DNA of 64,000 nucleotides from Paenibacillus yonginensis (GTDB taxonomy: Bacteria; Bacillota; Bacilli; Paenibacillales; Paenibacillaceae). This document shows, in pieces, positions 16,553-26,877 of this stretch (positions within the stretch are counted from its first letter, which is position 1; every line of letters begins with the position of its first letter). The position numbers and the translations under genes are program-made. The notes under the pieces are model-generated. The model was not told the DNA's origin and made no database searches. It was given only the letters and a program-made list of their open reading frames with translations. The DNA is taken from positions 310,001 to 374,000 of the forward strand of contig NZ_CP014167.1 of NCBI RefSeq assembly GCF_001685395.1, in the 5' to 3' direction.

Positions 16553-17086
16553 ATGGAGAGCGAAAATAGCCGGACGAATCAGGCATGCAAGGACGAAATT
16601 GTTTTTCGCCCCATGTTGATGGAAGATATTCCCGACATCATGATTATTGAACACGAATCCTTTACCTTGCCCTGGTCGAGCGATGCCTTCCGCAACGAGC
16701 TGACGCACAATCAGTTCGCCCGTTACCTGGTGATGGAGCGGAACGGAGCCCCCATCGGGTACGCTGGCATGTGGACGGTGCTGGATGAAGCGCATATTAC
16801 GAATATTGCCGTGAGGACGGCCCATCGCGGCCAGCATCTGGGCGAGCTGCTGCTCCGCCAGCTGATGACTTACGCCTGGGAGCTGGGGATGATCCGGATG
16901 ACGCTGGAGGTCCGGGTGTCCAACAATGTGGCGCAATCTTTGTATGAGAAGCTGGGTTTCCGGGGCATTGGCATGCGTAAAGGGTATTATTCGGATAACG
17001 GGGAAGATGCACTTATTATGTGGTGTGATTTATCGGACAAGATGAAAGCTGAAGGCGGCAGGGAAGGAAGCGAAACCAAGTGGTAG
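16553..17086 (+). CDS. rimI: Ribosomal protein S18-alanine N-acetyltransferase
   Basis: 177-residue GNAT enzyme. It has FRPMLMEDIPDIMIIEHESF, the acetyl-CoA loop RTAHRGQHLGELLL and LEVRVSNNVAQSLYEKLGF, all typical of RimI. It acetylates the N-terminal alanine of S18. The start ATG at 16553 lies eight bases after GGAGGG; the frame is open far upstream but that part overlaps tsaB. It overlaps the tsaD start by seven bases, so the two are co-translated. Confidence 0.92.
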   Translation: MESENSRTNQACKDEIVFRPMLMEDIPDIMIIEHESFTLPWSSDAFRNELTHNQFARYLVMERNGAPIGYAGMWTVLDEAHITNIAVRTAHRGQHLGELLLRQLMTYAWELGMIRMTLEVRVSNNVAQSLYEKLGFRGIGMRKGYYSDNGEDALIMWCDLSDKMKAEGGREGSETKW

Positions 17087-18204
17087 ACCCGGAACTGGAT
17101 ATAAATCCTGTACAATCTGAATCTAAATCTGAATCTGCAAATAGATCTGGGGCGGACCTTCGGGGGCAGCCGGCCGCGGCGTCCGGCGATTGTTATATTC
17201 TGGCGGTGGAGACAAGCTGCGACGAAACTTCGGCCTCCGTGGTCAAGAACGGCCGCGAGGTGTTAAGCAACATCATCTCCAGCCAGATCGACACGCACCG
17301 TGCATTCGGCGGCGTTGTCCCTGAAGTTGCTTCCCGCAAGCATGTGGAAGTGATTACGCTCATTATGGAGGAAGCGCTTGAGAAAGCCGGAATCAAGCCG
17401 GACGCCTTGTCGGCTGTAGCCGTTACTCAAGGACCTGGTTTGGTCGGCGCTTTGCTTGTCGGCGTAGTGGCAGCCAAAAGTTTTGCATTTGCGCTGGACA
17501 AGCCGCTGATTGCCACGCACCATATCGCGGGGCACATTTACGCCAACCGGCTCGTCCGCGAGCTGCGTTATCCTTGTGTGGCGCTGGTGGTGTCGGGCGG
17601 ACATACGGAACTGGTGCTCATGGAACGGGAAGGCCATTTCCGGTTGATTGGCCGGACCCGGGATGATGCCGTGGGCGAAGCTTATGACAAGGTTGCCCGG
17701 GCGATCGGCTTCCCATATCCGGGAGGCCCCTTCGTGGACAAGGCGGCTTTGGAATCGCCGGCGGCGGCGGACCTGCCCCGCGTCTGGCTGGAGCCGGACT
17801 CTTATGATTTCAGCTTCAGCGGCCTGAAGTCGGCGGTGCTGAATCTGGTCAACCGCAGTAAAATGAAAGGCGAAACGCCGGATTATGGCGCGATCGCCCG
17901 CGGTTTTCAGGAATCGGTGATCGAGGTGCTTGTGGAAAAAGCGATCCGCGCCGTGCGTTCCACTTCGGCGCAGCAGCTGCTGCTGTGCGGCGGTGTTGCC
18001 GCCAACAAAGGGCTGCGCGCCGCGTTGACGGGGCGCTGCGAGCGGGAAGGCGTGGAGCTGATTATTCCGCCCCTCGCCTACTGCACGGATAACGCCGCCA
18101 TGATCGGCGCGGCGGCTTATCTGAAATGGCAAAGCGGCGAATATGCCGATTTGAGCCTGAAAGCCGAACCCGGCCTGTCGCTGGAAGCGTGGTCGGTGGA
18201 ATAA
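17080..18204 (+). CDS. tsaD: tRNA threonylcarbamoyltransferase TsaD
   Basis: 374 residues. The ASKHA core starts near residue 43 with ILAVETSCDETSASV. Metal ligands HHIAGH are near 147-152 and the C-terminal metal Asp lies in CTDNAAM. SGGHTEL and DVGEAYDKVAR-like DAVGEAYDKVARAIG segments are intact. It transfers the threonylcarbamoyl group to A37 of tRNA. The GTG at 17080 follows GGAAGGAAG. The first 40 residues are a hydrophilic Ser/Glu-rich extension absent from most homologues. A terminator follows. Confidence 0.95.
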   Translation: MVDPELDINPVQSESKSESANRSGADLRGQPAAASGDCYILAVETSCDETSASVVKNGREVLSNIISSQIDTHRAFGGVVPEVASRKHVEVITLIMEEALEKAGIKPDALSAVAVTQGPGLVGALLVGVVAAKSFAFALDKPLIATHHIAGHIYANRLVRELRYPCVALVVSGGHTELVLMEREGHFRLIGRTRDDAVGEAYDKVARAIGFPYPGGPFVDKAALESPAAADLPRVWLEPDSYDFSFSGLKSAVLNLVNRSKMKGETPDYGAIARGFQESVIEVLVEKAIRAVRSTSAQQLLLCGGVAANKGLRAALTGRCEREGVELIIPPLAYCTDNAAMIGAAAYLKWQSGEYADLSLKAEPGLSLEAWSVE

Positions 18205-23898: not shown

Positions 23899-24279
23899 TT
23901 AGCTGCGTTCAAGCTGCTCCATGCCGGTGAAATCCTCGATGATCTTCTCGGGGCCTTGGACGATTTCCTTATCCCAGCCAAGCATTCCGCCTTCATAATT
24001 GTGAATATGAGCGAAGCCGAGCTCCTGGAAATAACGGGCCACATTCAGGCTGCGCTGTCCGCTCCGGCAGATGAAGACGTATTCCCGTTCTTTATCCATA
24101 TCGTCCGCATATTCGGCAATTTCGCCCATTGGAATCAGCGGCACGGTTGGGATATGTCCAGCTTCATATTCAAAGGGCTCCCTGACGTCTATAACGATTG
24201 TTCCGCGTTCTTTATCCTCCAAAATCTGCTGCAGCTCATCCGCATCAATATGGGAAACTCCGTACATCATTTTGCTCAT
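23899..24279 (-). CDS. Single-domain rhodanese-like protein
   Basis: 126 residues. IVIDVREPFEYEAGHIPTV near 35 and the active-site loop ICRSGQRSLNVARYF with the catalytic Cys near 78 are intact. It carries sulfur as a persulfide in the cytoplasm; the partner is unknown. The ATG at 24279 follows AAGGAG; the frame extends upstream but through the DnaA-box region without a start signal. Its promoter must lie within or next to the DnaA-box cluster. Confidence 0.9.
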   Translation of the reverse strand: MSKMMYGVSHIDADELQQILEDKERGTIVIDVREPFEYEAGHIPTVPLIPMGEIAEYADDMDKEREYVFICRSGQRSLNVARYFQELGFAHIHNYEGGMLGWDKEIVQGPEKIIEDFTGMEQLERS

Positions 24280-24347
24280 CTTAAACTCTCTCCTTATTCG
24301 TCGTATCGTATAGGTAGTTGAATCTGCGTTTTCGACTCTTGTCAAGG

Positions 24348-24606
24348 TGTGGACAAAATTATCCACATTCCAACACGCTTCTGTGTGTAAACAAAATGAA
24401 AGCATACCCCGCAAGGGTTTGTTTGAAACAGGGAAAAGGGCCTTTTTCCCTACACTTTTATTGTGAAAACTGTGGATAATGTGCATAACTTGGTGGATAA
24501 AATCCCCTCTTTATTAAAAAAGCCTGGTACAAGCGGTTTTTTTAGCCTAACTCGCTTGGATTTTTGTTCAATTAATCACCGTTTCTGGGGATAACCATGT
24601 GCATAA
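24348..24606. promoter_or_regulatory. DnaA-box cluster
   Basis: Within 260 non-coding bases there are four exact matches to TTATNCACA: 24359-24367 (+), 24471-24479 (-), 24480-24488 (-) and 24598-24606 (-). Four more differ at one base: 24348-24356, 24382-24390, 24492-24500 and 24586-24594 (all -). Two exact boxes abut head to tail. There is no dnaA or dnaN gene, so this is not the ordinary oriC. It lies beside the ydiF-like gene; from memory, B. subtilis has a DnaA-bound cluster in the gcp(tsaD)-ydiF gap. Confidence 0.8.
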
Positions 24607-24665
24607 GTTAAATGTCATATTTTTGAATGATTTCGTACTTTTTTGCCCCATTCCTCCGCAGGTTG

Positions 24666-26624
24666 TCACGCTTCGGCAAGCTGCTCCCATTCGGCATAAG
24701 CTTCGGCCAGTTCGGCTTTATGTTTGTCGATTGTGGCCTGTCTCTCCTGAACGGCCATATAGTCCTGATAGACCTCAGGCAACGTCAGTTCATTTTCAAG
24801 CGTTTCGATCTCTTCCTCCAGCTTGGCAATGGAGGTTTCAAGCTGCTCCATGCGTCGCTGGCGGCTGCGTTCTTCCCGTTTGGCCTGTTTGTCGGCTTCA
24901 AAGGAAGCAGCACCTGCTTTGGGTTCGCTTGTCTCGGCAGCGTCTTTCTTGGCTCCGGCGGTTTGTTTGGCTGCCGCATTCGCCGCCTGCTCGGCGGCAA
25001 TTTCGGCAAGCTCCTGCTTCTTCTCGACATAGTCATCATAATTTCCTAGGAAATGTCGGGCCCCTTCCGGATGCAGTTCAATCACCCTTTCGGCCATTTT
25101 ATTCAGGAAATAACGGTCATGGGAAATAAACAGCAGCGTTCCGTCATAGTCAAGCAGGGCAGATTCGAGCACTTCCTTGCTGTACAAGTCCAGGTGGTTG
25201 GTCGGTTCGTCCAAAATCAGCACATTGGCTTTCTGCAGCATCAGCTTAGCCAGCGCCACACGGGCTTTCTCGCCGCCGCTCAGGCTGGAGACCCGCTTCT
25301 GCACGTCATCCCCGCTAAACAGGAAGTTGCCGAGGATCGTCCGAATCCGCGCTTCCTCTACATGGGGGTAAGCGCTCCACAGCTCCTCCAATACGGTATT
25401 TGAGCCGGTCAGGTGCGTCTGCTCCTGATCATAATAACCGATCCTGATTTTGGTGCCCCAATTGATCTTGCCGGCTGTCGGCTTCAAATCGCCGGTCAAA
25501 ATTTTGAGTAGCGTGGATTTGCCGATGCCGTTTGGGCCGATCAAGGCGGCGGTTTCGCCGCGGCGCAGCTCAAAGGAGACATTTTTGAAAAGCGGATGAT
25601 CTTGATCAAAGGCGTAGGACAGCTGGTCAACCTGCAGCACTTCACGTCCGGACATGATTTCCGCTTCAAAGGAGAAGTTGGCCCGCTTCAAATCGCCAAG
25701 CGGTTTGTCCATGACCTCCATTTTGTCGAGCATCTTCCGGCGGCTTTGCGCCCGTTTGGTAGTGGAGGCTCTGACGATGTTCTTCTGGATAAAATCCTCC
25801 ATCCGGGCGATTTCATCCTGCTGTTTCTCGTATTGCTTCATGGCGCTTTCGTATTCGGCGTCCTTCAGCTCGGCGTAACGGCTGTAATTGCCCGTATAAC
25901 GTTTGGATTGATGGCGTTCGATTTCGACGATTGACGTCACCAGCCGGTCCAGGAAATAGCGGTCGTGAGACACGACAAGCAGGGAGCCGGAATAAGCGCG
26001 CAGATAGTCCTCAAGCCAGGTGAGCGTCTCGATGTCCAGATGGTTGGTCGGTTCGTCCAGCATCAGCACATCGGGAGCCTGCAGCAGGATGCGGGCCAGC
26101 GCCAGCCGGGTCTTCTGCCCGCCGCTCAGCGTGGCGATCGGCGTATCCGGCGGGAACGCTCCGAAGCCCATGCCGTGCAGGACGCTGCGGATCCGGGTCT
26201 CGATTTCATAACCGCCAAGATCTTTGAAGCGGTCCGAATTCTGGGCATAACGCTCGAGCAGATCCTGGTAGCTTTTATCTTCATGGTTGGCGGACGGATC
26301 GGCGATTTGATGCTCCATCCGCCGCAGCTCGGCTTCCATCTCCAGCAGGGGGGCGAAGACCAGCAGCATTTCCTCCCACAGCGTTTTATCGGAAGCGAGT
26401 CCGCTGTTCTGGGCCAGATAACCCAGCGTTGTTTCTTTGGCCTTAAAAATCTGCCCGCCGTCATAGGACATCTCGCCGGCGAGAATTTTGAGCAGCGTGG
26501 ATTTGCCTGCGCCGTTGACGCCGACAAGGCCGATCCGCTCGCGCTCTTGTATTTGAAGGCTGATGCCTTCCAGAATAGGTGTTACTCCATAGAGCTTCGT
26601 AATATTTGAGGCTTGAAGCAGCAT
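24666..26624 (-). CDS. ABC-F family ATPase (YdiF-like)
   Basis: About 652 residues with two ABC modules and no membrane segment. Walker A motifs are GVNGAGKST and GPNGIGKST; signatures are LSGGQKTRLALARI and LSGGEKARVALAKL; each is followed by a Walker B LDEPTNHLD. The linker between modules is the ABC-F P-site interaction region. The C-terminal coiled coil (about 560-650) is typical of YdiF. ABC-F proteins bind ribosomes and modulate translation or protect from antibiotics. The ATG at 26624 matches the family start; a second ATG at 26636 sits directly on GGAGG. Confidence 0.92.
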   Translation of the reverse strand: MLLQASNITKLYGVTPILEGISLQIQERERIGLVGVNGAGKSTLLKILAGEMSYDGGQIFKAKETTLGYLAQNSGLASDKTLWEEMLLVFAPLLEMEAELRRMEHQIADPSANHEDKSYQDLLERYAQNSDRFKDLGGYEIETRIRSVLHGMGFGAFPPDTPIATLSGGQKTRLALARILLQAPDVLMLDEPTNHLDIETLTWLEDYLRAYSGSLLVVSHDRYFLDRLVTSIVEIERHQSKRYTGNYSRYAELKDAEYESAMKQYEKQQDEIARMEDFIQKNIVRASTTKRAQSRRKMLDKMEVMDKPLGDLKRANFSFEAEIMSGREVLQVDQLSYAFDQDHPLFKNVSFELRRGETAALIGPNGIGKSTLLKILTGDLKPTAGKINWGTKIRIGYYDQEQTHLTGSNTVLEELWSAYPHVEEARIRTILGNFLFSGDDVQKRVSSLSGGEKARVALAKLMLQKANVLILDEPTNHLDLYSKEVLESALLDYDGTLLFISHDRYFLNKMAERVIELHPEGARHFLGNYDDYVEKKQELAEIAAEQAANAAAKQTAGAKKDAAETSEPKAGAASFEADKQAKREERSRQRRMEQLETSIAKLEEEIETLENELTLPEVYQDYMAVQERQATIDKHKAELAEAYAEWEQLAEA

Positions 26625-26877
26625 AATAACTAACATCCTCCATCTTTATAATGAACCGCTCGCATGGGCGGCAGTCAGGTCACAGATTCTTTTTCAGTTT
26701 AACCGAAACCGGCTCCGATTGCACCGGAAAGAGAGGTTTGAATTGTTTTTGACCAGGCTTGCGGAAAGCGGCGGGGCTTGTTTTCATTTTCATGGAACAA
26801 TGATAAACTAACTAATAGAACTGATATTTCGTATATGTCAATAGGATAAGTTCATTTCGGGCTGAAAGGTAGCGGAC

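Follow-up and report, generated by a model that had tools for sequence, protein, structure and literature searches.

The gap downstream of the YdiF-type ABC-F gene in this genome holds a dense cluster of DnaA boxes that, by its position and box content, is very probably the ortholog of the gcp/ydiF DnaA-box cluster of Bacillus subtilis. We give a probability of roughly 0.7 to the reading in which this ortholog acts as a phase-locked DnaA nucleoprotein complex that restrains replication initiation by holding DnaA. The window, which is the whole stretch of DNA analysed, is 64 kb long and covers positions C1:310001-374000 of the single 4.986-Mb contig of the genome. The cluster sits in a 386-bp gap (24280-24665) between two genes of the minus strand. 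Its anchor gene encodes an ABC-F ATPase of YdiF type (24666-26636, with the stop at 24666), and the cluster is on the 3' side of that gene. On the other side, the gap ends at the start (24279) of a gene for a rhodanese-domain protein (23899-24279), which adjoins the cluster only in some relatives. The other flank of the conserved block is tsaD, also called gcp (17080-18204, plus strand), about 6 kb beyond the cluster.

The preliminary description of this DNA, made from the letters alone, counted eight DnaA boxes between 24348 and 24606, four exact and four with one mismatch, seven of the eight pointing one way and two of the exact ones abutting, and that count holds. In the direction of ABC-F transcription, the layout is A-12-B, C-12-D-9-E, F-23-G-11-H, where only G is inverted. 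Box A (24598-24606, minus strand) is an exact TTATGCACA, and box B, 12 bp from it (24586-24594, minus strand), has one mismatch (TTATCCCCA) where many relatives have TTATCCACA. From B there are 94 bp to box C (24492-24500, minus strand, one mismatch, TTATCCACC), which is 12 bp from box D (24480-24488, minus strand, exact, TTATGCACA); D in turn abuts box E (24471-24479, minus strand, exact, TTATCCACA). The third group consists of box F (24382-24390, minus strand, one mismatch, TTACACACA), the inverted box G (24359-24367, plus strand, exact, TTATCCACA), which lies 112 bp from E, and box H (24348-24356, minus strand, one mismatch, TTGTCCACA), 11 bp from G. Within the E-F spacer, a terminator-like hairpin (24430-24451, plus strand) is identified by consensus scan only.

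A pattern search of both strands finds four exact TTATNCACA matches in the 64-kb window, and all four are within the cluster. As a window-wide total this number is marginal (4 versus 1.24 expected, a count that 5 of 100 shuffles also reach), and boxes with one mismatch occur across the window at chance level (41 versus 36.4 expected). It is the packing into 248 bp, rather than the total, that chance cannot give. Box densities were obtained by pattern searches of the genome, and the density check suggested in the preliminary description, taken over the whole contig, gives 118 exact boxes in 4.986 Mb. The expectation is then 0.0059 exact boxes per 248 bp, and at that rate four or more have a Poisson probability of 4.9e-11 in one 248-bp segment and of about 1e-6 across all such segments, so that the cluster is far above random expectation. 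A chance cluster is rejected on the basis of this packing and of a reversed-pattern control, which matches in 0 of 203 genomes.

No dnaA is nearby, as was noted from the letters: it lies at C1:4179434-4180741, 1.14 Mb from the cluster, which does not have the place next to dnaA that would mark oriC. Alongside dnaA itself, genes for a gluconate-type kinase, a permease and a GntR-like protein (named by eye from their translations) are apparently inserted between dnaA and the rnpA side (C1:4181472-4185372), and DnaA boxes flank this insert on both sides, at about C1:4180934-4181261 and C1:4185653-4185670. We also considered a fixed chromosomal distance between the cluster and oriC, and find the case for it weak. 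The ydiF gene is at 0.46 of the arm in this genome and anywhere from 0.25 to 0.55 in 27 genomes of the family, compared with 0.21-0.28 in seven genomes of other families; the variable position indicates that the place of the cluster follows the gene block. This set comprises 33 of the 49 genomes searched for dnaA plus the present one, and is without 11 family genomes, G031 (no match) and four genomes in two contigs. The genome encodes both YabA and Sda, which makes the control system around the cluster similar to the B. subtilis one.

The YdiF-type ABC-F gene is present in all 40 genus genomes, in 155 of 157 genomes drawn from the family and in 229 of 250 drawn from the class. We call a cluster any set of at least four boxes with at most one mismatch each, at least two of them exact, within 300 bp. 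By this definition a cluster lies downstream of ABC-F in 40 of 40 genus genomes, in 118 of 136 family genomes (14 of the 17 sampled genera) and in 39 of 67 genomes from other families of the class (14 of the 27 sampled families), where the family and class subsets (the 136, and the 67 from 27 families) are hand-picked from the listed matches and non-random. The comparison of the ydiF-side gap across relatives, which had been put forward as a check, thus yields a conserved element on the 3' side of ABC-F. In the genus, 38 of the 40 genomes have 3-6 exact boxes at most 350 bp from the ABC-F stop, and control DNA from the same genus has zero exact boxes in 39 kb of upstream sequence or in 78 kb of ABC-F coding sequence. 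The other two, G002 (locus L068) and G005 (L070), are cases of apparent absence that we reject, as longer stretches show the cluster displaced by other DNA to about 4.9 kb and about 2.2 kb, respectively. Further displaced clusters are found in two g18 genomes, at 5.4 kb, and in g2, at up to 3.2 kb. In general, the cluster persists where other genes adjoin it or intrude.

The downstream stretches read range from 0.6 to 6 kb, so that the absences we report are upper bounds. In the stretch read, 18 of the 136 family genomes have no cluster by our definition, and in some of them it may lie farther off; three of these loci (L194, L198 and L199) have runs of degenerate boxes. No cluster is found within about 6 kb in four g18, two g4 and two g5 genomes. 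Outside the family, 13 of the 27 sampled families (24 genomes) have none within 1.5-2.5 kb, and hence the element is not universal. We examined 15 of the 80 named loci returned. Carriers among them are Paenibacillus timonensis, Bacillus sp. FJAT-27264 and FJAT-49711, Planococcus sp., Amphibacillus sp., Halolactibacillus halophilus and Staphylococcus intermedius, with a weaker cluster in Paucisalibacillus globulus and a partial version in Macrococcus sp.; in the stretch read, there is no cluster in Halalkalibacter akibai, Shouchella miscanthi, Marinococcus luteus, Paenibacillus tianmuensis, Ligilactobacillus ubinensis or Bavariicoccus seileri.

The correspondence to the B. subtilis gcp(tsaD)-ydiF cluster, which the preliminary description had drawn, is supported by position, by density and by inheritance. 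The cluster is in the gap after the stop of a YdiF-type ABC-F gene, with tsaD about 6 kb on, and a convergent tsaD-cluster-ydiF arrangement, like that of B. subtilis, is found in four family loci (L100, L118, L119 and L124) and in 14 loci of other families; two other-family loci with convergent tsaD and ydiF, L149 and L157, have no cluster. Its DnaA boxes are dense beyond chance, and it is inherited at this locus through the intermediate lineages (118/136 in the family and 39/67 in other families, a sample that has B. subtilis outside it). Like the B. subtilis cluster, it is downstream of ydiF on the tsaD side, rich in boxes (eight here, 10 sites there) and far from oriC. Unlike the B. subtilis cluster, it is separated from tsaD by other genes, the rhodanese gene included. 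Box order and spacing here differ from those in the genomes of other families, and for B. subtilis the comparison was made with the published description of the cluster.

For that counterpart, PMC4447404 describes a region with 10 sites and a Kd of 0.15 uM for ATP-DnaA that is among the strongest DnaA sites in vitro, and in the same account it prefers ATP-DnaA over ADP-DnaA 16-fold at 55 nM. Two reviews, in their passages on these elements, report that removal of six B. subtilis clusters leads to early initiation (PMC5295017, PMC13220808), and according to the former a single re-inserted cluster partly restores the timing. In the same 2017 review, the contribution of the B. subtilis clusters to initiation is also stated to be insignificant (PMC5295017). 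By analogy, DnaA binding, the preference for ATP and an effect on replication would be expected of the cluster in this organism as well.

From genus to genus, the boxes hold their order and their distances from one another, and the sequence between them diverges. There are 53 family clusters in which the E-G distance is 112 bp, and 22 of these, from nine genera, are less than 80% identical. In the 22 sequences, the boxes average 1.61 bits, non-box positions 0.54 and shuffled spacers 0.15. The finder that selects clusters, for these scores and for the spacing counts below, demands a D-E-G set, which 65 of 210 loci lack (some true clusters are laid out differently), so the conservation scores of D, E and G arise partly by construction. 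Boxes C, F and H are free of that selection step, and in the same sequences they score 1.54, 1.45 and 1.20 bits, respectively.

Where the distances vary, they do so in bands. The E-G distance is either 101-104 or 111-116 bp, with single values of 124 and 126. The B-E distance takes values of 105-106, 114-118, 126-128 and 134-136 bp when it is scored, as we do, only with A and B as a 12-bp pair; otherwise there are off-band boxes at 130 bp (one g13 genome) and weak ones at 94-96 and 103 bp. By parsimony on a tree of the ABC-F protein with 101 taxa (95 scored for E-G and 56 for B-E, with g2 left out of the E-G count for its two inverted boxes about 12 bp apart), the changes larger than 3 bp within the family are -10, -11, -11, +9 and -9 for E-G, and -9, -10, +20, -9, -9 and +12 for B-E. 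The remaining inferred changes in the family are of 1-3 bp. All 11 of the larger ones are no more than 1.5 bp away from a multiple of 10.5 (p 3.8e-6 versus a flat null). The stretch between the ABC-F stop and E, taken as a control, varies freely in length: it changes 54 times among the 73 taxa scored, and 23 of its changes are of 4-31 bp, 10 of them near multiples of 10.5, which is the chance level (p 0.17); as it contains the B-E stretch, this control is not fully independent. Outside the family, five of seven larger changes fit the helical rule and two do not (-27 and -7), which makes 16 of 18 overall, with some of the other-family changes uncertain because, in a genome with several inverted boxes, the one with the fewest mismatches and then the nearest is taken. 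Rayleigh tests treated related genera as independent and overstated significance, and we prefer the tree-based counts.

The simplest reading of larger spacing changes that fall near whole helical turns is that the box modules have to lie on one face of the helix, as they would in a looped or wrapped complex. These changes suggest a regulatory complex of defined form and not a random DnaA sponge, and, taken with the fixed order of the boxes and their conservation over genera and families, they argue for selection on such a complex. We propose that DnaA would bind the boxes cooperatively and that the bound modules would join on their shared helical face to form one defined nucleoprotein complex. 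The complex would hold DnaA at a place 1.14 Mb from oriC and, along with other clusters, delay initiation until sufficient DnaA has accumulated. The rhodanese gene would not be the primary beneficiary of the element. Titration of DnaA by the cluster is plausible, and the fixed box architecture argues for more than loose titration.

A different use of the same fixed complex is an active DnaA switch, in which, as at datA and DARS in E. coli, the complex would stimulate ATP hydrolysis or nucleotide exchange on DnaA. Like datA, DARS1 and DARS2, the present cluster is a DnaA-box locus away from the origin, and those loci affect initiation (PMC5295017). They act through the nucleotide state of DnaA with the help of IHF or Fis, as the same review describes them (PMC5295017). 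A switch agrees with the fixed box order and helical phase and with the 16-fold preference of the B. subtilis counterpart for ATP-DnaA over ADP-DnaA at 55 nM (PMC4447404), but a fixed phase would also be favoured by cooperative holding, and in B. subtilis, where IHF, datA and DARS are all missing, no locus of this type is known (PMC13220808). We think a switch of this type unlikely. The same low expectation applies to the wider proposal that sees in the ydiF-side cluster a phase-locked DnaA machine instead of a sponge, one that would sense or reset DnaA (its ATP/ADP or oligomer state) and be the Gram-positive counterpart of datA/DARS.

Gain or loss of box units of 9 or 12 bp is the main alternative to the helical-phase reading. 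It belongs with a passive sink in which box number alone matters, and in which spacing is inherited or results from copying and loss of such units. The boxes have steps of 9 bp (where they abut) and 12 bp, close to one helical turn, and the gain or loss of a box could in some cases pass for a helical step. Most clusters of the g1 clade with short spacing have no recognisable box F, and the alternative may apply to that clade. Most spacers are too diverged for gaps to be placed by alignment. The exception is f3, where alignment places an 11-bp difference in spacer DNA flanked by retained boxes, contrary to what loss of a box unit would leave. Likewise, g10 and L169 keep both E and F while the E-F distance shrinks from 88-90 to 79-80 bp, and hence no box has been lost. 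A sink also sits poorly with a box register that is held over 112 bp in nine genera despite poorly conserved spacers. We consider it improbable that box number is all that matters, and favour the phase-locked complex that holds DnaA.

Past box G there is a TTGACA element (24340-24345, minus strand), whose place is fixed at 13 bp from G in four genera: g1 (35/37 clusters), g7 (14/14), g14 (13/13) and g8 (13/13). In family f3, it is 15-16 bp past G in 11 of 13 clusters, and the 13-bp place has it in none of the 35 clusters of g2, g6, g9, g10, g13, g16 and g19 together. In several f3 loci (L145, L159, L163, L167 and others), the DNA that separates box G from TTGACA holds a conserved stretch resembling AAGTACGAATGTTC, loosely reminiscent of the consensus of a LexA site. 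The preliminary description had suggested that the cluster might be a DnaA-controlled promoter of the rhodanese gene, and one can extend this to a promoter or operator for whichever gene is downstream, since the boxes are upstream of the rhodanese start in this genome, a same-strand rhodanese gene is somewhere downstream in 17 of 40 genus stretches (mostly of 1.5 kb) and TTGACA has its fixed place in nearly all clusters of the four genera. Such a role is very unlikely, as only 4 of 40 genus genomes have a same-strand rhodanese gene that starts no more than 800 bp from the ABC-F stop, seven genera are without TTGACA at that place, L118 (g8) keeps it though tsaD converges on the cluster, a scan of 24200-24700 finds no sigma-70-like promoter, no shared -10 box is seen by eye across the clusters listed for TTGACA, and the cluster remains after the intrusion of other genes. 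As a conserved role, the rhodanese promoter is rejected, because cluster and gene are not kept together; the rhodanese gene is often a looser neighbour of the cluster.

The genome has two further DnaA-box clusters, both with fixed spacing. A second one (C1:3160695-3160794) has the layout box, 26 bp, inverted box, 53-54 bp, inverted box, 12 bp, box, which is found in 16 of 16 genus genomes examined and at least partly in 24 of 28 further loci; it is not seen in the other four of those 28 (L371, L377, L379 and L391). The Sda gene directly adjoins this cluster (C1:3160506-3160628), and an Sda-like frame is present in 38 of 44 loci. The sda promoter region is a known target of DnaA, and the second cluster fits this link. 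The cluster differs from the ydiF-side one in that it abuts a DnaA-linked gene, whereas the ydiF-side cluster has no conserved downstream gene. The sda-side cluster serves as a positive control, because the DNA upstream of yqeG and sda is a region of strong DnaA binding in B. subtilis (PMC4447404). A third cluster (C1:4069318-4069410) is upstream of tadA, and its layout is shared wholly or partly by 20 of 20 genus loci examined, with variants in which one box is missing (L398, L401 and L405) or one spacing is 10 bp longer (L412). We know of no tadA-side cluster of this kind in B. subtilis. A histidine-kinase-like match, in many cases partial, accompanies all 20 tadA-side loci, and in this genome the kinase gene beside the third cluster is divergent from tadA and encodes HAMP, PAS and HisKA domains. 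Together, the tadA-side and sda clusters hint at a link from replication to the phosphorelay.

This kind of element is already known, and what we have not found in the literature searched is this member, its spread and its phase rule. No report of a Paenibacillus cluster appears in that literature; earlier remarks on conservation may exist, for instance in Okumura 2012 or Ishikawa 2007. According to a 2026 review, whether B. subtilis possesses regulators of the balance between ATP-DnaA and ADP-DnaA is not known (PMC13220808). The conserved cluster bears on whether Gram-positive bacteria have DNA elements that control the activity of DnaA. If the reading as a machine that senses or resets DnaA were true, the cluster, which is found in 14 of the 17 genera sampled in the family and 14 of the 27 other families sampled, would be the missing Gram-positive counterpart of datA/DARS.
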